Source of the DNA: Finegoldia magna
GTDB taxonomy: Bacteria > Bacillota > Clostridia > Tissierellales > Peptoniphilaceae
Reading direction: 5' to 3'
DNA: 64,000 bases
Assembly: GCF_003182075.1 (NCBI RefSeq)
Contig: NZ_QGTH01000005.1
Location: forward strand, 1-64,000
The position numbers and the translations under genes were made by a program. Numbering within the stretch: position 1 is the first letter of the stretch; the number at the start of each line of letters is the position of its first letter. The notes below the pieces were generated by a model. That model saw nothing but the letters and a program-made list of their open reading frames with translations, was not told where the DNA came from and searched no databases. Positions 48,103-59,944 of this stretch are shown piece by piece.

Positions 48103-50007
48103 ATGGAAAAATATTTTTATCAGGGAAATAATGAAACGGATGTATATTTGTTTCATGAAGGAAACAATAATAATTTGTACAAATTTTTAGGATCTCATAT
48201 TTACTCAGATGGATTTGGAACCTACACCAGATTTTTGGTGTGGGCTCCTAATGCTAAGCACGTAAATTTGGTTGGAGATTTCAATGATTGGGACGATTAT
48301 TCACTCCCACTTCAAAAATTACACGATGGAGAAATTTGGGAGATTTGTCTCAGAGATGTTAAAATCTTTGATTCATATAAGTACAGAATAGTCACACAAG
48401 ATTCAGAAGTTTTGTATAAAGCGGATCCATTTGCATTTCATAGCGAATTAAGACCTAAAACAGCAAGCAAGGTTTATGACATTGATGGTTATAAATGGAA
48501 AGATAAAAAATGGATCACAAAAAGAGAAGAAACTGATATATTTCACAGTCCTATGAGTATCTATGAAATAAATCTTTCCTCATGGCGAAAACGTGATGAA
48601 AATTATCTCTCCTACGTTCAATTAGCAGATGAACTTGTATCTTATCTCAAAGAAATGAATTACACACATGTTGAATTTATGCCCTTAATGGAACATCCAT
48701 TTGATGGATCATGGGGATATCAACTTACGGGTTTTTTTGCAGCGACATCTAGATTTGGTTGTCCAAAAGATTTGATGTATTTGATTGACAAATTACACCA
48801 GAATGATATTGGAGTTATCATGGATTGGGTGCCGGCTCATTTTTGTAGAGATGATTTTGGACTTAGAAAATTTGATGGAAGTAATTTATTCGAAAAATCT
48901 GACCAATACTTAGCTGATAATGATCAATGGGGAACATTGAACTTTGACTTTTCAAAAAAAGAAGTGGTGAATTTTCTTATATCTTCTGCATTATTTTGGC
49001 TCAAATACTATCATTTGGATGGATTAAGGGTTGATGCAGTTGCTTATATGATTTATTTGAACTTTGCTGGAAAAGATATCAGAAACGAAGATGGCGGCTA
49101 TGAGAACAAGGAAGCTATCGAATTTATTAAAAAATTAAATCAAACAATCAAACAAGAATTTCCAAGTGCGTTTGTCATTGCAGAAGAATCAACTTCATGG
49201 CCAAATGTTACAAAACCTGTAGAAGAAAGTGGACTTGGTTTTGATTTTAAGTGGAATATGGGTTGGATGAATGACATAATTAAATACATGAAGATGAATC
49301 CAATCTTCAGGAAAGACCATCATAATTTATTAACTTTTTCGATAATGTACGCCTTTAATGAAAATTACATCCTTCCATTTAGTCACGACGAAGTAGTTCA
49401 CATGAAAAATTCAATGATTGGTAAAATGCATGGAACTTACGATGATAAATTTGATCAAATAAGACTTTTGTATTCGTTTATGTTTGCTCATCCAGGTAAG
49501 AAACTTTTATTTATGGGTAATGACATAGGACAATTTGATGAGTGGAATGAATATAAAGACATAACATGGGAAGTTTTGGAATACGAGAAACATCAACAAT
49601 TAAAACATTTCATGGAAGATTTGAATAAATTTTACAGAGATAATAACGAGTTTTATAATTTGGATACTAGTTATTCAGGTTTTCAATGGGAAGATGTGAA
49701 CAACGCAAATGAATCTTTGATTATTTTCGAGAGAATAAATTCTAAAAACGAAAAAATTATTTGTATTTTTAATTTTACACCTGTAAAAAGAGAGAAATAT
49801 CCTGTAGGTGTCGATTGTTATGCGCTTTATTCAGTTGTACTTAATTCTTCAATGAAAAAATATGGTGGTAATTTGCTAAGGAATAAACCTTATTATTCCA
49901 AAAATAATGGACATAATGACAGAAAATTTTCAATCAAAGTTGATATAGAACCATTTTCTGCGATGTTTATAAAATTAAATAAACTTAGAAATATCAATAT
50001 AAAATAG
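48103..50007 (+). CDS. glgB: 1,4-alpha-glucan branching enzyme
   Basis: GH13 enzyme of 634 residues that makes alpha-1,6 branches in glycogen. An N-terminal CBM48-like domain (about 30-130) precedes the barrel, with catalytic Asp in [10 protein letters not shown], catalytic Glu in VIAEES and transition-state Asp in FSHDEVVH. Length and motifs are those of GlgB. It opens an eight-gene glycogen operon with gaps of at most ten bases or overlaps. GGGAGAAAAT is the ribosome site; a promoter is not clear in the 38-base gap. Confidence 0.95.
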
Positions 50008-50015
50008 GAGGACGT

Positions 50016-51155
50016 ATGAAGGCGCGAAATAGAGTTGTCGCAATGCTTTTAGCGGGAGGACAAGGTTCAAGACTAAAAGCATTGACAAAAAATGTTGCAA
50101 AACCAGCAGTGTCATTTGGTGGAAAATATCGAATAATTGATTTTGCTTTGAGTAATGCTGCAAATTCAGATATAAGAGATGTAGGAATATTAACCCAATA
50201 CAAACCATTCAAATTAAATTCACATTTAGGAAATGGATCCAGCTGGGACTTATCCAGAAATTCTGGCGGTTTAAGAATTTTATCTCCATTTGCCACAGAA
50301 AGTGGTGGTAATTGGTATGAAGGTACAGCCAATTCTATTTACGAAAACATGAATTACTTGGATGAATTGGATGCAGAATATGTTGTTATTTTATCTGGTG
50401 ATCATATTTACAAAATGGATTACAATAAAATTTTAAAATATCATAAGGATAAGAATAGTGACCTTACAATAGCAGTAATGGAAGTAGATTGGAGCGAAGC
50501 TAGTAGATTCGGTATTATGAATACCGATGAAGATGGAAAAATTGTTGAATTTGAAGAAAAACCAAATAATCCAAAAAGTAATTTGGCTTCTATGGGAATA
50601 TATATTTTCAATTGGCATACTTTAAAAAAATATTTGATCGAAGACAATGAAGATAAGAATTCGAAACACGATTTTGGAATGAATATAATTCCTAAGATTA
50701 TAAATGATGGACTAAATGTTTTTGCATGGAAATTTGATGGCTACTGGAAAGATGTGGGAACTGTAAGAAGTTATTGGCAGGCCAATTTGGATTTATTAAA
50801 TCCTGATAATAGACTTGACTTGTACGATACTAATTGGAGAATTTACACAAAAAACAGAAATCTTCCTCCTCATTATGTTGATGAAGTTGCAGATGTCAAA
50901 AAATCTTTAATTAATGAAAATTGTTTGATTTACGGAAATGTGAACAATTCCGTTTTGTTTTCTTCGATAACTGTGGAAAAGAATGCAGAAGTTCATGATT
51001 CTGTTATTTTAAGCGATACCGTTATCAAAAAAGGTGCAAAACTTTACAACTGTGTAGTCGCAGCGTCCATGACTATTGAAGAAAATCAAGTAATTGGTGA
51101 AGAAAACTCCGACAAAATCTTCTTGGTTAGCGAAGATGGAATTGAAGAGTGTTAG
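50016..51155 (+). CDS. glgC: glucose-1-phosphate adenylyltransferase
   Basis: ADP-glucose pyrophosphorylase of 379 residues supplying ADP-glucose for GlgA. The nucleotidyltransferase signature [18 protein letters not shown] and the [10 protein letters not shown] segment are intact, and a left-handed beta-helix follows near 290-360. It is the catalytic partner of the GlgD-type subunit encoded nine bases downstream, as in Bacillus. Confidence 0.96.
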
Positions 51156-51164
51156 GAGGAATTT

Positions 51165-52277
51165 ATGCAAAATTGTATTGGAATTATATACGGCGGAAAA
51201 AGTAGACAAGATTTTGGTTATTTAACAGATTCTAGACCAGAATATATGCTTCCTTATGGAGCAAGATATAGAATTATAGATATTGCATTGAGTAACTTTG
51301 CAAACAATGAATTTTCAAATGTTGTTTTGTATGGTGGCAAAATTATGAGGTCTACTCTTGATCACTTGGGAAATGGTGAAAGTTACGAATTGAACAGAAG
51401 ACGAAATGGACTTGTTATATTTCCTCCAACTTTTGAAAATTCAGGTAAGGAAATTGTAGCTTATAATGAAACTAAAGATTTTTATTTAAGATCAAAAGAA
51501 GATGAGTTGTACTTCTACGATCCAATGGTTATTTTCAGAGAAGATTTTTCGGTTTCTCATGATAGATTTATAAAAGAAGATTTGGACATATTATTGTTCT
51601 GCAAAAAGATGGATAATGCAACGGGATTATTCATCGGTGAGACTAGATTAAACTTGGATGATGAAGGCAATCTAATCAGCATAGGAACAAATCAAGGAGT
51701 CGATGATGAATTTAATTTGATGACTAACATTGGTTACATGAAAAAAGGAGTCTTTTTGAATTTGATTCACGATGCAGCTAAAAATTCTAATTCTAATGAA
51801 TTAATTGATGTTATTATTTCTAATTTGGATAAATTAAAAATCGGTGTATACATGATTGACGGATATGTTGAGGTAATCAGAAATTTGACTCAATTTTACG
51901 ACGCGAATTTGAAATTATTGAATGCCGATATTTACAATAATGTATTTTTCAAAAATGGATTGTTATTAACAAAATCGAAAGACGAGCCGTCAGCATTGTA
52001 TGGTGATTCTGCTTGTGTGAAAAATTCATTGATAGCAAACGGAGTCAAAATAGATGGTAAAGTAGAAAACTCAATTATTTTTAGAGGCGTAGAAATTCAA
52101 GAGGGTTCTGTTATCAAAAATTCCGTTATTTTCGAGAGAACTGTTATAGAAAAAAATGCAGTAGTTGTAAATACGATTACTGATAAAGGAGTTTTGATAA
52201 AAGAAAATGTAACTGCGGTTGGTAATCCAAATTATCCATACGAATTAAAAAAGAATGCAATATTAGAAGATAAATAG
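51165..52277 (+). CDS. glgD: GlgD subunit of glucose-1-phosphate adenylyltransferase
   Basis: GlgC paralogue of 370 residues. The N-terminal loop has YGGKSRQDFGYLTDSRPEYM where catalytic GlgC has GGxGSRL and KPAV, so it is probably non-catalytic, as is known for GlgD in other Firmicutes. YRIIDIALSNF and the C-terminal beta-helix remain. In Bacillus-type systems GlgC-GlgD heteromers are more active than GlgC alone. AGGAGG precedes the start. Confidence 0.93.
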   Translation: MQNCIGIIYGGKSRQDFGYLTDSRPEYMLPYGARYRIIDIALSNFANNEFSNVVLYGGKIMRSTLDHLGNGESYELNRRRNGLVIFPPTFENSGKEIVAYNETKDFYLRSKEDELYFYDPMVIFREDFSVSHDRFIKEDLDILLFCKKMDNATGLFIGETRLNLDDEGNLISIGTNQGVDDEFNLMTNIGYMKKGVFLNLIHDAAKNSNSNELIDVIISNLDKLKIGVYMIDGYVEVIRNLTQFYDANLKLLNADIYNNVFFKNGLLLTKSKDEPSALYGDSACVKNSLIANGVKIDGKVENSIIFRGVEIQEGSVIKNSVIFERTVIEKNAVVVNTITDKGVLIKENVTAVGNPNYPYELKKNAILEDK

Positions 52278-52287
52278 GGGAAAGTAA

Positions 52288-53712
52288 ATGAATATATTAT
52301 ATTGTGCAGCAGAGGCTGATCCGTTTATAAAAACTGGTGGACTTGCAGATGTTGCAGGTACACTTCCACTTGAAATGAAAAAGCAAGGTCATGAGGTGAA
52401 AGTGGTCATCCCTTTGTACAAATTGATAAATGAGGAATACAGAAAAAAATTTGAATTTGAGGGAAGTTTTTATGTAGATTTGGATTTTAAACATCATTAT
52501 GTTGGTGTGTTCAAATACATTCATAGAGGTGTGGAATTTTATTTTTTAGATAACGAAGATTATTTTAACAGAGATAATGTGTATGGCGAAAATGACGATT
52601 GTGAAAGATTCGTATTTTTCTCTAAAGCATGTGTTCAATTGTTAAGATATATCGATTTTGATTGTGACATTATCCATTCCAATGATTGGCACACAGCAAT
52701 GGTAAATGTTTATGCTAGAGATTTTGCTAAAGGGGATCCGTTCTATGAGTCAATCAAAACTGTTTTTACAATTCACAACCTAAAATATCAAGGTGTATTC
52801 AGTTCAAATTCACTTAGACAAACAGATTTATCACCTATGTATTTTTCTGAAGATGCATTGAAATTTTACGATGCAATTAATTTTATGAAAGGTGCGATAG
52901 TTTTTAGCGATAAAGTTACAACTGTTTCTAAAACTTATGCCGATGAGATTAAATACTCATTTTTTGGAGAGGGTTTGGATGGTGTTATCAGACAATATCA
53001 CTACAAAATATCTGGAATTACAAATGGAATTGATACAACTATTTGGAACCCAGAAAAAGACAAATATTTATTTAAAAATTACTCACTGAAAAATATCAAA
53101 GATAAATTCGTGAACAAAAAAGCATTACAAAGAATGTACGGTTTGGAAGAAAAAGATGTGCCTATATTCTCCATGGTTACTAGATTAGTTGAAAATAAGG
53201 GGCTTGAACTTGTAAGATACATTATGGATGAGTTTTTGACGACGGAAGATGTACAAGTGATAATTTTGGGAACAGGTGATTATTCTTATGAAGAAATGTT
53301 CAAATATTATGAGTGGAAATTCCCAGATAAATTAAAAGCAAATATTTATTATAATAATGAAGAATCACACAAAATTTATGCAGGAGCAGATTTCTTGATG
53401 ATGCCATCAATATTTGAACCTTGCGGAATATCTCAATTAATTGCTATGAGGTATGGAACAATACCAGTAGTGCGTGAAACTGGAGGATTGAGGGATACTG
53501 TTCAATCATTTAACGAATTTAGCAAAGAAGGAAATGGATTTTCTTTTACAAATATCAACGCGCATGACTTCTTGTACACATTGAGACGTTCAATATCATT
53601 TTATTACAATGATGATTTTAAAATAATTCAAGAAAATGCTATGAAGTCAAAAAATGATTGGGAAAAATCTGCAAAAGAATACATCCAACTTTATGAGGAG
53701 ATTATTAAATGA
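52288..53712 (+). CDS. glgA: glycogen synthase
   Basis: GT5 glycosyltransferase of 474 residues that extends alpha-1,4-glucan from ADP-glucose. The N-terminal KTGGLADVAGTLP, central HSNDWHTAM, ITNGIDTTIWNP and C-terminal PSIFEPCGISQLIAMRYGTIP motifs are complete. It overlaps the next gene by four bases (ATGA), so the phosphorylase-like protein is translated along with it. Confidence 0.96.
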   Translation: MNILYCAAEADPFIKTGGLADVAGTLPLEMKKQGHEVKVVIPLYKLINEEYRKKFEFEGSFYVDLDFKHHYVGVFKYIHRGVEFYFLDNEDYFNRDNVYGENDDCERFVFFSKACVQLLRYIDFDCDIIHSNDWHTAMVNVYARDFAKGDPFYESIKTVFTIHNLKYQGVFSSNSLRQTDLSPMYFSEDALKFYDAINFMKGAIVFSDKVTTVSKTYADEIKYSFFGEGLDGVIRQYHYKISGITNGIDTTIWNPEKDKYLFKNYSLKNIKDKFVNKKALQRMYGLEEKDVPIFSMVTRLVENKGLELVRYIMDEFLTTEDVQVIILGTGDYSYEEMFKYYEWKFPDKLKANIYYNNEESHKIYAGADFLMMPSIFEPCGISQLIAMRYGTIPVVRETGGLRDTVQSFNEFSKEGNGFSFTNINAHDFLYTLRRSISFYYNDDFKIIQENAMKSKNDWEKSAKEYIQLYEEIIK

Positions 53713-55802
53713 TTGATATTTCCGAAGATCGATTAAGAAAGATGTTGCAGATAAAATTATCGTATAACTCATTAGTCGATCTTCAAAATGCGGATGTCTA
53801 TGAAATTAGAATAGCATTAAATGAAGTCATTAAAGAAATTATTTCTGAACAATACACAAATATAACTACTAACAAATCTTATAGAACATATATAGTGTCG
53901 TTTGAATTAATGGTAGAAAATTTGTTTGAAGATTATATTGAAAAACTCAATTTAAAGACTCCATTACAAAAAATATTACAAGAAAAATATGAAGATATTG
54001 TAAATATGGACAATGATCTGCACCTTGGACAAAGCTATATAGGAAGATTCTCAGTAGATTTGTTTGAGAAAATTTCAAAACAAGGAAAGTTTTGTAAAGT
54101 GTATTCTATTTTTTACAAAAATTCACAGTTTAAACAACGAATAGTCGATGAAAATCAAATTGAGACAGTATTTAATAATCCAAAAACAAGCGTCGTTTTT
54201 AAAAGATCTAATGAATACGACATAGAATTAGATAATAATAAAATTAAATCACAAATATACGATATTCCTTATATAAATTGGAATACGAATTTTATCAGAT
54301 TATTTGCACCAAAAGCTAATCCCAATCTTAATTACGAAAATTTTATTCGCGGAAAAATAGAGGAGATTTATTCTGAGGAGAACAAACTAGACTCAATTTG
54401 CCAATTTGTTTACACACCTCAGATTGACGAATTTGGAAAGTATATTAAATTCTTGCAACAAAAATTTCTTGCAGATTCAATAGTGGAAGACATATATAAT
54501 GACGAAATCAAATTTTTTAAAAATCCAGATAATATCGAAGACCATATTCAAATTAATATCGTTGAAACAAATGTTGCTCTGGTAATAATCGCATTCTTGC
54601 AAAAATTATTGGATTTTGGATATGATTTTGAAAAAGCTTTGGAAAAATCTAATAAAATTTTCAAGTATTATAATATTAATCTGCACAGAGAGTCATTTGA
54701 ATTAATGGATTTGAGATTTTTGTATCAGTTTGATTATATTAAAAATATTATCCATTTGCTAAATGAAAATGCACAAAAAAATGGGTATGCACAAATTATC
54801 AAAGACGATTTTCTAGATTGCTTTAATCTTATTGCTTTCGTAACACATTCTATAATGGTTGGGTCTGATTATCAGAAAAAATATCTATTGAATAGCAAAT
54901 ATGTGGATATCACCAGAAACGTTGAAGTTAAAATTATGTCAGAAACCTATGGGTTTAACGACGATTTATTCTATAAAAGTCTGGAATGTAATAATTTGTA
55001 TTCTAGCAAACTAAAATATAAGAAAAAACTTGTAGAAAAGTACAGTTTAGAAAATATAAATGATAAGAGCATTTTTAATATGCAATTATCAGATTTTCAC
55101 GAGGGTAAGAGACAAGCTCTAAATGTCTTTTATATTTTGTATTTGTACTTAAAACTAAAATATAATGTGAATACGATAATTACTCCTACGACGTTTTTTA
55201 TTGGAGGGATGAGTTCTTTTGATTATTTGTTTTGCAAAAAAACAATTAGTTTGTGTCTTGGTTTATCTAAGATAATTAATTCGGATAAGCTAATTCAAGA
55301 AAAAATAAAATTAGTGTTTGTCGAAAATATAATGCTTGATCAAGTGCCAGACTTCGCCAAAGCATGTGATGTTTTCAACTATATACCTTACAAAAACTTC
55401 GATATTTCAAACACATATCCTTACGCATTTATGAATAACGGATCAATTATTTTGACAAGTGATTCTAGTGTTTTTGAAAATATAAGCCAATTAAAAGATA
55501 CTGGAGTATTTAAGTTTGATGAAGAAAATTTCGCAAATACAGAATCCAGTTGTATGGATTTTATATTAAAAAAAATCGAATTATTGGAAAACAAAAAATT
55601 CATAGATGAATTTTATGAGATTTATAATTTGATTCTTAAATACAACGATAGTTTTAATGTGATAAATTCTTTTGATAATTTTGTGGAAGTTAATGAAAAA
55701 ATTCAAAAATGGTATTTGAATGAAAATTTATGGAATGATTTAATGATTAAAAATATAGAAATATCCAAAAAATTCGGAATTAACTATTTAAAGGATGTTT
55801 AG
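53709..55802 (+). CDS. degenerate glycogen phosphorylase homologue, probable pseudoenzyme
   Basis: Protein of 697 residues, shorter than GlgP (about 750-830). Collinear but decayed GlgP landmarks run along it: IVSFELM for the YLSxEFLMGR region, LGQSYIGRFSVDLF for LGNGGLGRLAACFLDS, ETNVALVI for NDTHPALAI, YYNIN for YTNHT, FHEGKRQALN (H464, K467) for HEYKRQLLN, and IGGMSSF (M501) for GGKAAPG. The segment that should read EASGTGNMKF aligns to DISNTYPYAF, with A573 in place of the PLP-binding lysine. PLP-dependent phosphorolysis is therefore unlikely. The frame is intact over 2 kb and coupled to glgA, so it is a retained protein, perhaps regulatory or glucan-binding, not a pseudogene. Confidence 0.8.
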   Translation: MIDISEDRLRKMLQIKLSYNSLVDLQNADVYEIRIALNEVIKEIISEQYTNITTNKSYRTYIVSFELMVENLFEDYIEKLNLKTPLQKILQEKYEDIVNMDNDLHLGQSYIGRFSVDLFEKISKQGKFCKVYSIFYKNSQFKQRIVDENQIETVFNNPKTSVVFKRSNEYDIELDNNKIKSQIYDIPYINWNTNFIRLFAPKANPNLNYENFIRGKIEEIYSEENKLDSICQFVYTPQIDEFGKYIKFLQQKFLADSIVEDIYNDEIKFFKNPDNIEDHIQINIVETNVALVIIAFLQKLLDFGYDFEKALEKSNKIFKYYNINLHRESFELMDLRFLYQFDYIKNIIHLLNENAQKNGYAQIIKDDFLDCFNLIAFVTHSIMVGSDYQKKYLLNSKYVDITRNVEVKIMSETYGFNDDLFYKSLECNNLYSSKLKYKKKLVEKYSLENINDKSIFNMQLSDFHEGKRQALNVFYILYLYLKLKYNVNTIITPTTFFIGGMSSFDYLFCKKTISLCLGLSKIINSDKLIQEKIKLVFVENIMLDQVPDFAKACDVFNYIPYKNFDISNTYPYAFMNNGSIILTSDSSVFENISQLKDTGVFKFDEENFANTESSCMDFILKKIELLENKKFIDEFYEIYNLILKYNDSFNVINSFDNFVEVNEKIQKWYLNENLWNDLMIKNIEISKKFGINYLKDV

Positions 55803-55811
55803 GAGTTATAA

Positions 55812-57620
55812 ATGTATGATTTAGGGTTTAATTATAATAAAGAATATACAGTTTTTAAGATTTATGCTCCGCAAATAACTAGTGTAAAATTATTGTTGTA
55901 CGAAAATTGCGATGATGTCAGATACAACTCCATAGATATGAAAAAAAGTGTTGGATACTTTGAAGTCAAGGTTGAGGGAGATTTGGATGGAGTTTATTAC
56001 AAATATCAGCTTGATGAAAAGTTTGAAATTGTAGATCCATTTTGTAAAGCTTCTTCAATCAACAGCTTAAAGTCGTGTGTCGTAGATTTGAATTCCACAA
56101 ATCCAGTAGGGTTCATAGATGAACAATACAAAATAGCAAATAGGAATGAAGCTATAATTTATGAATTGTCGATAAAAGATTATTCTTCAGATATTTCTAG
56201 CAAAGTTGATGAAAAATATCGCGGGAAATTTTTGGGATTGGTAGAAGAAAATGATGTTTCAGGAATAAATCATTTAAAAAATTTGGGCATAACACATGTT
56301 CATTTAATGCCTGTATTTGATTTTGTAGGCGTTGATGAGAGAAATTCAGAAAAATTTTCTGAAGATAATTACAATTGGGGTTACAATCCTGAAAATTATA
56401 ACTGTATTGAAGGTAGCTTTGCTACAGAATCAGAAAATCCAAAGAATCGAATTTTTGAATTCAAAAAAATGATTCAAACTTTACACGCTAATAATATCGG
56501 TGTGATTATGGATGTGGTTTATAATCACACTTTTAGAAATAAAGATCATCCATTTAATTTGATTTATCCACAATTTTATAGACGTGATAATAATGGAGAT
56601 TTTACAAATGGATCTGGTGTTGGTAATGAATTAAATACAGAAGATGAATTTGTAAGAGATTTTATTATTCATAGCTTATTATATTTTCAAAAAGAATTTC
56701 ACGTTGATGGTTTCAGATTTGATTTAATGGCTTTAATAGATTCAGAAACAACTGATAAAATCGTAAGTGAACTTCGAAAAGAAGATGATAATGTAATTAT
56801 ATACGGAGAGCCATGGATGGCAGATGAATCTCCACTACCAAAAAACAGAAGAACCACTTTTGGTAGTCAAAAAGGAAAAGATTATGCGTTATTCAATCCT
56901 TTTTTTAGAAATGCCATTAAAGGTGATAACGATGATATTTCTACAGGTTTTGTTCAAAAAAATGTAGATAAAATTAGTTTGGAAGTAGGAATTTGTGGAT
57001 CGATATACTATGATGAAGATAGACGTGGGTTTTGCAAAAATTCTAATGAATCTATTAACTATTTTAATTCACACGATAATTTAATACTTCAAGATAAATT
57101 ACTTAAAACAAATGCTGATATTGCAACATCTACAAAGCTTTGTTTTGATTTGATAATGCTAAGTCAAGGGATACCATTTTTCCATTGTGGAAATGAGTTT
57201 TTGAGAAGCAAATTGATGTTTAAAGATACTTATAATTTACCAATTGATATTAATGCAGTGAATTGGAAGTTAAAATATGATAACAATGAAATATACCAAT
57301 ATGTAAAATCGTTAATTGAGTTTAGAAAAAGACATTCAGAATTTAATCTTAAAGATGAAAATGAGATTAGAAACAAAATCAAATTTTACGATTTAAATGA
57401 TTTTTGTATATGTTTTAGTATTAAAAATGATAAAGGATTTTTGCTTGTTTTTATAAATTCAGGAGAAAAATTCGAATTTGATTTGAGCAATTATTTTAAA
57501 TATTTTGTAAATTGCACGAAGATTTTTGATGAAAAAATAATTGAAACAAAAGTAAGCGGAAATGTAATTTTGATTGGGGAGAGAAAAAGCGGGGTATATT
57601 CAATAAGTATGGAGAAATAA
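55812..57620 (+). CDS. pulA: type I pullulanase/debranching enzyme
   Basis: GH13 debranching enzyme of 602 residues, without signal peptide, thus intracellular. A CBM48-like domain (about 1-90) precedes the barrel. YNWGYNPENY is the type I pullulanase signature; the nucleophile is D304 in GFRFDLMA, the acid/base E333 in IYGEPW, and NSHDN carries the third acid. It would cleave alpha-1,6 links in stored glycogen. It shares its last base with the start of the papain-like gene. Confidence 0.94.
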   Translation: MYDLGFNYNKEYTVFKIYAPQITSVKLLLYENCDDVRYNSIDMKKSVGYFEVKVEGDLDGVYYKYQLDEKFEIVDPFCKASSINSLKSCVVDLNSTNPVGFIDEQYKIANRNEAIIYELSIKDYSSDISSKVDEKYRGKFLGLVEENDVSGINHLKNLGITHVHLMPVFDFVGVDERNSEKFSEDNYNWGYNPENYNCIEGSFATESENPKNRIFEFKKMIQTLHANNIGVIMDVVYNHTFRNKDHPFNLIYPQFYRRDNNGDFTNGSGVGNELNTEDEFVRDFIIHSLLYFQKEFHVDGFRFDLMALIDSETTDKIVSELRKEDDNVIIYGEPWMADESPLPKNRRTTFGSQKGKDYALFNPFFRNAIKGDNDDISTGFVQKNVDKISLEVGICGSIYYDEDRRGFCKNSNESINYFNSHDNLILQDKLLKTNADIATSTKLCFDLIMLSQGIPFFHCGNEFLRSKLMFKDTYNLPIDINAVNWKLKYDNNEIYQYVKSLIEFRKRHSEFNLKDENEIRNKIKFYDLNDFCICFSIKNDKGFLLVFINSGEKFEFDLSNYFKYFVNCTKIFDEKIIETKVSGNVILIGERKSGVYSISMEK

Positions 57621-58237
57621 TGGATACTAGATATGAACTTAAAGATGTAGATAAAATTTTGAGTATAGAAGGTTTCTTTGGTGGAGATCAACAATGGTTT
57701 GAAGATGTTTTGCATTCAAACTATCTTACTAAAAAAGGTTGTTCAGTAATTGCCTTCACAAATTTTCTTATCTACATTGCAAATACAAAAAAAGAATATG
57801 CTAAGTTAGTTCCAGAAAATTTTATCGGAAGTCCGATAAATAAGACTGATTATATAAAATTTGCTGACAAGTTATCTACATTTATTAAACCTAAACTATA
57901 TGGCGTTCCATTTTTATTTCCAATGAACAGCGCTATTCGAAAGTACGCCAAGAAAAACGGAGTGATTCTTGTTGTACAAAACTACAATTTTACATGGAAT
58001 ATCAGAAATATAGTGACATATATTATTGGTGCAATAGCAAATGGCTATCCAGTTTTGATGTTGACGTTAAATCATAGAAATCCTGATGTTAAATTTCATT
58101 GGGTTACGATAACTGCGATTTATTATGATGATAGTTGGAAAATTGAATGCTCAAACTGGGGAACAAAGAGAGTGTATGATTTAGAAAAATGGTTTAAGGA
58201 AAAGTCTTTGTACAAAGGTTTAATTTATTATCAATAG
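57620..58237 (+). CDS. papain-fold (C39-like) protein in the glycogen operon
   Basis: Protein of 205 residues without signal peptide or membrane segment. A cysteine-peptidase-like arrangement is visible: oxyanion-type Q24/Q25 in GGDQQWF, C41 in KKGCSVIAF at the start of a helix, H160 in KFHWVTITAI and N179 in CSNWGTK. This is the order of C39-like and related papain-fold proteins. It begins in the stop codon of pulA and lies nine bases before pgcA, so it belongs to the operon. Protease, deamidase or transferase activity are all possible; substrate and link to glycogen are unknown. Confidence 0.72.
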   Translation: MDTRYELKDVDKILSIEGFFGGDQQWFEDVLHSNYLTKKGCSVIAFTNFLIYIANTKKEYAKLVPENFIGSPINKTDYIKFADKLSTFIKPKLYGVPFLFPMNSAIRKYAKKNGVILVVQNYNFTWNIRNIVTYIIGAIANGYPVLMLTLNHRNPDVKFHWVTITAIYYDDSWKIECSNWGTKRVYDLEKWFKEKSLYKGLIYYQ

Positions 58238-58246
58238 GAGGATTTT

Positions 58247-59944
58247 ATGGATTATTTAAAAAAATATAATGAATGGTTAAATGATGAGTGTTATGATCAA
58301 CAAACCAGAGACGAATTGATGTCAATAAAAGATGATGATGAAGAAATACAAGATAGATTTTATAAATCATTAGAATTTGGTACTGCAGGTTTGAGAGGAA
58401 AAATCGGGGCAGGTACTAATAGAATGAACAAGTACAACATAATGAAAACAACACAAGCACTTGCAGATACTATAAAAAATTACGGCGATGAAGCTTTGAA
58501 AAGAGGCGTAAGCATTAGCTACGATGTTAGAAAATTCTCCAAAGAATTTGCAGAAATATCGGCAAACGTATTAGCTTCTAATGGAATAAAAGTTTATTTG
58601 TCTGACGATATTAGACCAACACCAATGTTGTCTTATTCAATCAGAAAATTCAATTGTATTTCAGGAATTATGATTACAGCATCTCACAATCCAAAAGAAT
58701 ATAATGGATACAAGGCTTATTGGGAAGAAGGTAGCCAAATTCTTGAAGATAAGGCTAATGAAATTTTGAATAATTTGGACAAAATAGAAAGTTTTACAGA
58801 AGTGAAGATTGGAGATTTTGAAAAATTAATATCCGATGGGAAAATAGAATATTTTGGAGAAAATTTGGATAAAGATTATTTTGATGATGTTCTAAGCCTT
58901 ACAATTAATGACGATAATATTGATAAAAATGTTAAAATCGTATACACTCCTTTAAACGGAACCGGAAATAGATTTGTAAGACATATCCTAGATGTTAGAG
59001 GATTCAAAAATGTTTATGTTGTAAAAGAACAAGAAAATCCAGATAGTAACTTCACAACTGTTCCTTATCCAAATCCTGAAAATCCAGAAGCATTTGAATA
59101 TGCCATTAATTTGGGAAAAGAAGTTGGAGCTGATTTGTTATTGGCAACAGACCCAGACGCAGACAGAACCGCTGTAGAAGTTTTAAGTGATGGAGAATAT
59201 GTCTTCTTAGATGGTAATAAAATTGGAGCATTATTGACTAATTATATTTTAAGTCAAAGATACGAAAAGCATGATTTGCCAGAAAATCCAGCAGTTGTTA
59301 AATCAATTGTAACAGGAGATTTGTCTGCTAAAATTGCAAAAAAATACGGCGTTGAAATGATTGAAACATTAACTGGATTCAAAAATGTTTGTGGAAAAGC
59401 AAATGAATACGAAAAAACTGGAGAAAAATCTTGGGTATTCGGATATGAAGAAAGTATTGGTTATTCCTATGGAACATTTGTAAGAGATAAGGATGCTGTA
59501 AGCTCTTCAATGATGATTTCAGAAATGTTAGCTTTTTATAAGAAACAAGGAAAGACATTGATTGATGTTTTAAATGATTTGTATGAAGAATTTGGATATC
59601 ATGAAAATTCACTTTCTTCTGTTGTGTTAGAAGGATTAGATGGTCAAGAAAAAATCGCAAGAATTATGGAAGAATTCAGACATAATCCAATTAATGAAAT
59701 AGGTTCTACAAAATTAGTTGAAACAAAAGACTACAATGTAAATTATGCGGATTTTGGAACTCCAAGATCAAATGTTTTGAAATATTACTACGACGATGGA
59801 TCATGGTATGCTTTAAGACCTTCTGGAACTGAACCGAAAATCAAACTATATATTTATTCTGTTGCAGATTCAAAAGAAAAAGCTGAACAAAAAGTTTTGG
59901 ATATCGAAAAAATAGCAAAAGAAAAAATGATGAATGTTAAATAA
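58247..59944 (+). CDS. pgcA: phosphoglucomutase
   Basis: Alpha-D-phosphohexomutase of 565 residues interconverting glucose-1-phosphate and glucose-6-phosphate. Phosphoserine loop TASHNPKEYNGYK has S146, metal loop DPDADR and sugar loop GYEESIGY are present, and the C-terminal phosphate-binding RPSGTEPKIK is intact. It links glycogen synthesis (through GlgC) with glycolysis and is the last gene of the operon, followed by a terminator. AGGAGG gives a strong start. Confidence 0.95.
   Translation: MDYLKKYNEWLNDECYDQQTRDELMSIKDDDEEIQDRFYKSLEFGTAGLRGKIGAGTNRMNKYNIMKTTQALADTIKNYGDEALKRGVSISYDVRKFSKEFAEISANVLASNGIKVYLSDDIRPTPMLSYSIRKFNCISGIMITASHNPKEYNGYKAYWEEGSQILEDKANEILNNLDKIESFTEVKIGDFEKLISDGKIEYFGENLDKDYFDDVLSLTINDDNIDKNVKIVYTPLNGTGNRFVRHILDVRGFKNVYVVKEQENPDSNFTTVPYPNPENPEAFEYAINLGKEVGADLLLATDPDADRTAVEVLSDGEYVFLDGNKIGALLTNYILSQRYEKHDLPENPAVVKSIVTGDLSAKIAKKYGVEMIETLTGFKNVCGKANEYEKTGEKSWVFGYEESIGYSYGTFVRDKDAVSSSMMISEMLAFYKKQGKTLIDVLNDLYEEFGYHENSLSSVVLEGLDGQEKIARIMEEFRHNPINEIGSTKLVETKDYNVNYADFGTPRSNVLKYYYDDGSWYALRPSGTEPKIKLYIYSVADSKEKAEQKVLDIEKIAKEKMMNVK

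Follow-up and report, generated by a model that had tools for sequence, protein, structure and literature searches.

Few enzymes have been studied as closely as glycogen phosphorylase, whose pyridoxal 5'-phosphate (PLP) site is taken as indispensable. Here we report that a 64,000-nucleotide stretch of Finegoldia magna DNA (the window; positions 1 to 64,000 of contig NZ_QGTH01000005.1) carries, within a glycogen operon, a homologue of glycogen phosphorylase (GlgP) in which alanine stands at the place of the PLP-holding lysine. Comparison of sequences suggests that this protein is probably a part of the glycogen machinery that has been retained without catalytic function, that is, a pseudoenzyme. 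A first-pass annotation of the same DNA had proposed a pseudoenzyme kept for another role, encoded by an intact 697-residue frame coupled to glgA. The frame is unbroken and shares four bases with the end of glgA, and the proposal is supported by alanine in a congener, a conserved operon slot, purifying selection and the presence of a normal GlgP at another place in the genome, with loss of activity predicted from the residues replaced.

The open reading frame (ORF) is a homologue of the glycogen phosphorylases (GT35/GlgP), and the match lies far beyond chance: it scores 177 bits against Pfam PF00343 (cut-off 27), and its best solved relatives by sequence are the human liver glycogen phosphorylases (phmmer, E about 3e-35). 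Against the TIGR02093 phosphorylase model it reaches 174.3 bits, where the cut-off is 552.9. A structural comparison of the kind envisaged in the first-pass annotation gave a whole-length match: an AlphaFold2 model (mean predicted local distance difference test score, pLDDT, 83.7; predicted template modelling score 0.85), which leans towards the known fold through an input alignment of the window protein with 7 degenerate and 40 canonical proteins, superposes on C. callunae starch phosphorylase (2c4m_A) with Z 41.5, a root-mean-square deviation of 3.1 and 692 of 697 residues aligned. A degenerate relative of 733 amino acids (aa; L121) was modelled with pLDDT 88.0 and Z 47.5 across 726 residues. 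The likeness to GT35 phosphorylases (2c4m, E. coli MalP, rabbit muscle glycogen phosphorylase) thus lies in the predicted whole-length fold, the PF00343 match and the operon place beside glgA and pulA, whereas the differences lie in the active-site residues and in the TIGR02093 score.

Phosphorolysis by the known mechanism involves PLP held covalently on a conserved lysine, K646 in E. coli MalP, together with lysines that coordinate its phosphate (PMC11046441). In the window protein the motif EASGTGNMKF is replaced by DISNTYPYAF, with A573 at the PLP lysine and inside a predicted helix (residues 570-576), and GGK is replaced by GGM501, as the first-pass annotation had read them. Other residues are given here by rabbit numbers, K680 included, anchored on motifs. 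The basic set that coordinates phosphate and PLP (K568, R569, K574, K608) becomes S461, D462, K467 and M501, with only K467 kept. H377 and N484, which we take to contact glucose, are I323 and Y414; H341 is N288; and a stretch of some 35 residues following the N484 motif is missing, so that the catalytic landmarks lost are more than those listed earlier. Because the PLP lysine and the phosphate-coordinating lysines are lost, no phosphorolysis is expected, and the window protein is predicted to be catalytically dead.

Misalignment of the PLP motif was ruled out, as MAFFT alignments of 14, 79 and 161 rows and the phmmer match to human liver phosphorylase place it identically. A sequencing or assembly error was likewise ruled out by the orthologue in a congener (one other genome of the genus was compared), which is 81% identical and has alanine at the same place.

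As a search for orthologues with the same loss, suggested in the first-pass annotation, showed, the slot gene is degenerate well beyond this genus. In a profile search over 130 Peptoniphilaceae genomes (Anaerococcus included), followed by reading of the loci, 52 carried a degenerate GlgP, of which 49 have one long frame (697-824 aa between stops) and three are broken (G096, G112, G125). One of the 49 (G095) is interrupted near its start: roughly the first 50 profile positions are missing from its long frame and fall in a different one. All 31 genomes of the genus that includes Anaerococcus porci carry the gene, G096 and G095 among them, and Lagierella massiliensis is another carrier within the family. 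In every Peptoniphilaceae carrier locus with labelled flanks the gene sits between glgA and pulA, within the limits of the stretch; among carriers seen with 1.5-kb flanks only, glgA was found in 46 of 47 genomes and pulA in 47 of 47.

Restriction to one family was ruled out by a second family of the order, where degenerate frames of 740-777 aa occur in 7 of 28 genomes, each with a full-length second match elsewhere. There glgA and pulA flank the degenerate gene in six of the seven, the stretch from G225 matching neither. These copies were not among the matches listed in a 249-genome search of the order; decayed copies elsewhere could therefore likewise go unseen, and may exist in further families. 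A candidate from a third family (G220, three matches) resolved into a single canonical GlgP plus two further matches that are short and weak. A wider contig scan gave, among its best 80 loci, 80 frames of at least 600 aa, of which 71 were canonical, one was cut off (L195), one was odd (L171) and seven were degenerate: four from Anaerococcus species or metagenome-assembled genomes (MAGs; L119, L120, L131, L136) and one each from A. porci (L118), L. massiliensis (L124) and a Tissierellia MAG (L121). L192, within the same 80 loci, had no frame of at least 600 aa. The odd frame (L171:861-5246) is cyanobacterial, 1462 aa long, with a phosphorylase-like stretch whose motif columns read EAGDTGNLI; it may be another unusual relative, or a frame that is fused or damaged.

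To describe the degree of loss, 90 distinct Peptoniphilaceae frames were reduced to 79 alignment rows by removing two duplicates and nine frames below 690 aa from broken copies (degenerate ones of G096, G112 and G125; canonical or mixed ones of G069 and G073), and rows were sorted as canonical or degenerate by SGTG and K680 only. Residues unused in the sorting nevertheless separate the two groups: K568, R569, K574, R575, K608, H377 and N484 are kept in 30 of 30 canonical rows, and in the 49 full-length degenerate rows SGTG is kept in none, N484 in 2, H377 and R569 in 3 each, K568 in 4, K680 (as lysine) in 11, K608 in 40, K574 in 41 and R575 in all 49. In the second family neither SGTG nor K680 is kept in any of the seven rows. 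Loss of SGTG, K568/R569, H377 and N484 is thus general, and loss of K608 marks the window lineage and a few others. Three rows (L028, L029 and L034, from genomes G029, G016 and G118) have another loop where SGTG stood, and are possible functional intermediates.

Active-site columns are preferentially lost across both degenerate sets. We compared 120 columns conserved at 97% or more in 105 canonical rows, within an alignment of 161 rows (these 105 plus the 49 and 7 degenerate rows, with L171 and L195 left out); 18 were taken as active-site columns and 102 were others, the columns not being independent of one another. Mean retention was 0.29 in active-site and 0.54 in other columns for the 49 rows (one-sided p 0.0017), and 0.15 and 0.53 for the seven rows of the second family (p 0.0003). 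For the window protein alone, 3 of 18 active-site columns were kept against 40 of 102 others (Fisher p 0.11, one-sided Mann-Whitney p 0.034). The degenerate rows also have conserved residues of their own: 11 columns, mostly aromatic, small or aliphatic, are conserved only in them, F65 and F233 each in 49 of 49. F233 lies in a segment that we take to be the equivalent of the phosphorylase tower helix, where it occurs in 100% and Y221 in 92% of the 49 degenerate rows, compared with 2% and 0% of the 105 canonical rows.

The operon copy is not the genome's sole phosphorylase. The search of the rest of the genome proposed in the first-pass annotation found a normal GlgP on contig 7 (C7:59333-61426; 970.8 bits) with EASGTGNMKF intact, and in the 19.5-kb stretch around it (L205) no operon gene was matched beside it. 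A canonical-motif GlgP was also found in 49 of the 52 Peptoniphilaceae carriers, split over two frames in G073. The three carriers in which none was found (G011, G012 and G084) have genomes 81, 91 and 86% complete, and G011 has partial matches. GlgA scored over its cut-off in all 52 carriers and in 29 non-carriers. Three genomes (G015, G107 and G108; loci L225 and L226) have GlgA over the cut-off and no GlgP found; a frame of 244-245 aa matches the degenerate-GlgP profile there, weakly and over part of its length.

Purifying selection acts on the degenerate gene, which is constrained less than glgA or normal GlgP. The ratio of nonsynonymous to synonymous substitution rates (dN/dS) was 0.055-0.173 in 17 of 19 pairs, two pairs being saturated and without a value; several of the dS values lie above 1 and are rough, and two of the 17 pairs (L060/L054 and L060/L119) are apparently the same comparison. 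Between the window and its congener dN/dS was 0.107 for the degenerate gene, as compared with 0.024 for glgA, 0.032 for glgD, 0.053 for glgB, 0.128 for pulA and 0.047 for canonical GlgP. Purifying selection argues for a retained pseudoenzyme rather than a decaying relic. The gene combines homology to an enzyme, loss of catalytic residues and purifying selection across species, as expected of a pseudoenzyme.

Elsewhere in the order, two families used as outgroups (L209, L210) have an active-motif GlgP in this operon slot, and PMC4282360 gives the gene order of Lactobacillus acidophilus as glgBCDAP-amy-pgm. Within the Peptoniphilaceae the slot gene is either degenerate or gone, with a glgA-pulA gap of -14 to 83 nucleotides in 11 of 12 measured non-carrier loci. 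In G034 pulA was not seen near glgA, and the remaining operon genes are missing from the glgA loci of G015 and G102. Another occupant of the interval was noted in G017: a 349-aa ORF between glgA and pulA (L218:5976-7022) with weak colinear resemblance to the C-terminal half of degenerate GlgP (hhalign probability 49.7%; 5.0 bits, and 2.8 for the next of 27 other frames), possibly a terminal remnant.

In quick trees the sampled degenerate rows fall on one side of a branch, with Shimodaira-Hasegawa-like approximate likelihood ratio test (SH-aLRT) values of 100 for 24 rows and 95.5 for 25 rows of both families. A single origin of both families' copies is nonetheless uncertain, because these copies are long branches; that of the window genus is very long, at 3.56 changes per column. 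The simplest history would be that the operon copy was the original glycogen phosphorylase, ancestral to the degenerate gene, that a second, stand-alone GlgP took over phosphorolysis in the window lineage, and that the operon copy, so relieved, either survived as a pseudoenzyme or disappeared.

The retained protein keeps the predicted GlgP fold but has neither the PLP-holding lysine nor the residues that position phosphate and glucan, and should therefore not phosphorolyse. It could serve the breakdown machinery as a scaffold or non-catalytic subunit, pairing with active GlgP and/or PulA via a retained dimer-type surface and tuning breakdown. We offer this partnership with GlgP and PulA tentatively, at somewhat less than an even chance, by analogy with GlgD beside GlgC. 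GlgD is without activity in other Firmicutes and modulates GlgC (PMC9093745); its gene belongs to the operon that also holds degenerate GlgP, and it is a known inactive paralogue of an active enzyme, as degenerate GlgP is predicted to be. GlgD differs in not being homologous, in being known to form a heteromer, which for degenerate GlgP is a proposal, and in that glgC adjoins glgD, whereas active glgP sits elsewhere in the genome. The AdoMetDC prozyme of T. brucei is likewise a dead paralogue retained beside its active relative, although activation is demonstrated there by structures (PMC5201418), whereas the evidence here comes from sequence. In maize starch, isoamylase provides an example of non-catalytic functions in an alpha-glucan enzyme family of storage-glucan metabolism, but in a plant, in another enzyme family and at another pathway step (PMC12510319).

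In an uncalibrated rate covariation analysis of 83 branches of 43 genomes, and of 55 branches of 29 genomes, from the 52 carriers, the partial rho of the degenerate gene was 0.51 and 0.42 with pulA, 0.43 and 0.35 with canonical GlgP, 0.22 and 0.12 with glgA, and 0.14 with glgD. These values weakly favour PulA and GlgP over GlgA and GlgD as partners. They are the lowest, on what is a weak measure, for the genes central to an overlapping explanation with another partner and direction, namely that a glucan-binding or sugar-phosphate-sensing non-catalytic protein acts on GlgA or GlgC-GlgD. This explanation takes in the candidate roles of the first-pass annotation, which were to bind glycogen, to hold GlgA or GlgC-GlgD or to sense a phosphorylated sugar. 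The overlap of its start codon with the glgA stop, the presence of GlgA in all carriers and the two-domain fold kept in the model are consistent with such a protein, whereas the glucose-contacting N484 and H377 are lost; we regard it as possible but unlikely.

Several observations weigh against a retained, non-catalytic GlgP. Preferential active-site loss is weak for the window protein taken alone (the Fisher value above), and normal phosphorylases predominate in the alignment that guided the AlphaFold2 model. The gene evolves faster than glgA and normal GlgP, three of the 52 carriers have a broken copy and one an interrupted one, and over long time scales the gene is dispensable, glgA being followed directly by pulA in those 11 of 12 non-carrier loci. 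The covariation values of canonical GlgP with glgD (0.52) and of glgA with canonical GlgP (0.43) are no lower than those of the favoured pairs. K680, K608 and K574 persist in 11, 40 and 41 of the 49 degenerate rows, and L028, L029 and L034 keep K680, K608 and R569, the first two also K568. Because K680, K608 and R569 are kept in some rows, the claim of lost PLP binding does not extend to the whole degenerate set.

Such retention could also be viewed as neofunctionalisation to a glycosyltransferase-like enzyme of changed chemistry or substrate, in which members with K680, R569 and GGK might use PLP on another acceptor and derived members something else. L028 and L029 keep K568, R569, K574, K608, E672 and K680 (L034 all but K568) around a new loop, and K574, R575 and K608 are widely kept in the set. 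Against this, the window lineage has lost K680, K608, K568, R569, H377, N484 and the segment of about 35 residues, the replacement residues vary between genera, and no new conserved charged set was seen among the 11 degenerate-only columns; a new enzyme is thus improbable. Slow decay, in which a second GlgP made the operon copy redundant and left it as a relic in the course of being lost, would fit the empty slots, the broken and interrupted copies, the faster evolution and the long branch of the window genus, but is made very improbable by dN/dS values that overlap those of pulA, by frames uninterrupted in 48 of 52 carriers and by the existence of residues conserved only in degenerate rows.

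The degenerate gene is the fifth in a run of glycogen genes in the order glgB, glgC, glgD, glgA, degenerate glgP, pulA, a 205-aa ORF and a phosphoglucomutase-family gene (Table 1). The 205-aa ORF has no Pfam or NCBIfam match at E 0.001, its best Pfam hit being TPP_enzyme_N at 13.9 bits, below that family's cut-off. A relative again lies 3' of pulA in several carriers of degenerate GlgP, and beside the stand-alone canonical GlgP in some genomes of the A. porci genus (g24; L208, L080, L082), which makes this ORF a candidate unknown glycogen-linked protein.

Table 1. Glycogen genes of the window and altered sites within the degenerate GlgP homologue
Feature	Position	Strand	Basis
glgB, branching enzyme	48103..50007	+	ORF, profile match
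glgC, ADP-glucose pyrophosphorylase catalytic subunit	50016..51155	+	ORF, profile match
glgD, ADP-glucose pyrophosphorylase subunit	51165..52277	+	TIGR02092, 267 bits (cut-off 236.6)
glgA, glycogen synthase; stop overlaps start of degenerate gene	52288..53712	+	ORF, profile match
Degenerate, apparently non-PLP GlgP homologue (putative pseudo-phosphorylase), 697 aa	53709..55802	+	ORF reading, profiles, alignment, predicted fold
aa 221-235, presumed equivalent of tower (dimer) helix and its end; substitutions Y221, F233	54369..54413	+	alignment
SDFHEGKRQ (aa 461-469), phosphate/PLP site: K568/R569 = S461/D462; K574/R575 kept = K467/R468	55089..55115	+	alignment
GGM501SS (aa 499-503) instead of GGKAA; K608 lost	55203..55217	+	alignment, phmmer
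DISNTYPYAF (aa 565-574) instead of EASGTGNMKF; A573 at PLP lysine	55401..55430	+	alignment, phmmer
pulA, type I pullulanase (debranching), next in operon	55812..57620	+	TIGR02104, 522 bits (cut-off 504.5)
205-aa ORF at end of pulA	57620-58234	+	
Phosphoglucomutase/phosphomannomutase family protein, closes the glycogen gene run	58247..59944	+	ORF, Pfam

Pseudoenzymes are known as a kind, and to our knowledge no pseudo-phosphorylase has been described. We found no GT35 pseudoenzyme or non-PLP GT35 protein in the literature searched, most subscription papers being outside reach, and the word 'pseudoenzyme' was not found in the examined text of a 2024 review of prokaryotic glucan enzymes (PMC11046441). 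It is possible, though less likely than not, that the protein described here is a new kind of subunit and the first pseudoenzyme of GT35: a 'GlgD for phosphorylase', retained across two families as a non-catalytic partner and controlling GlgP and pullulanase on the glycogen particle. As part of that reading, and with the same reserve, one operon slot might display a series from active enzyme through a PLP-lysine-keeping intermediate and a dead enzyme to a lost gene.

At least 56 genomes (49 and 7) keep this gene at full length yet discard the site, so that oligomerisation and regulation of phosphorylase become testable apart from catalysis. The degenerate group also illustrates the change of an enzyme into a non-enzyme within an operon. 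Annotation by profile alone, with PF00343 above its cut-off, would wrongly name such genes glycogen phosphorylase, including those of Anaerococcus, a genus of the human microbiota.

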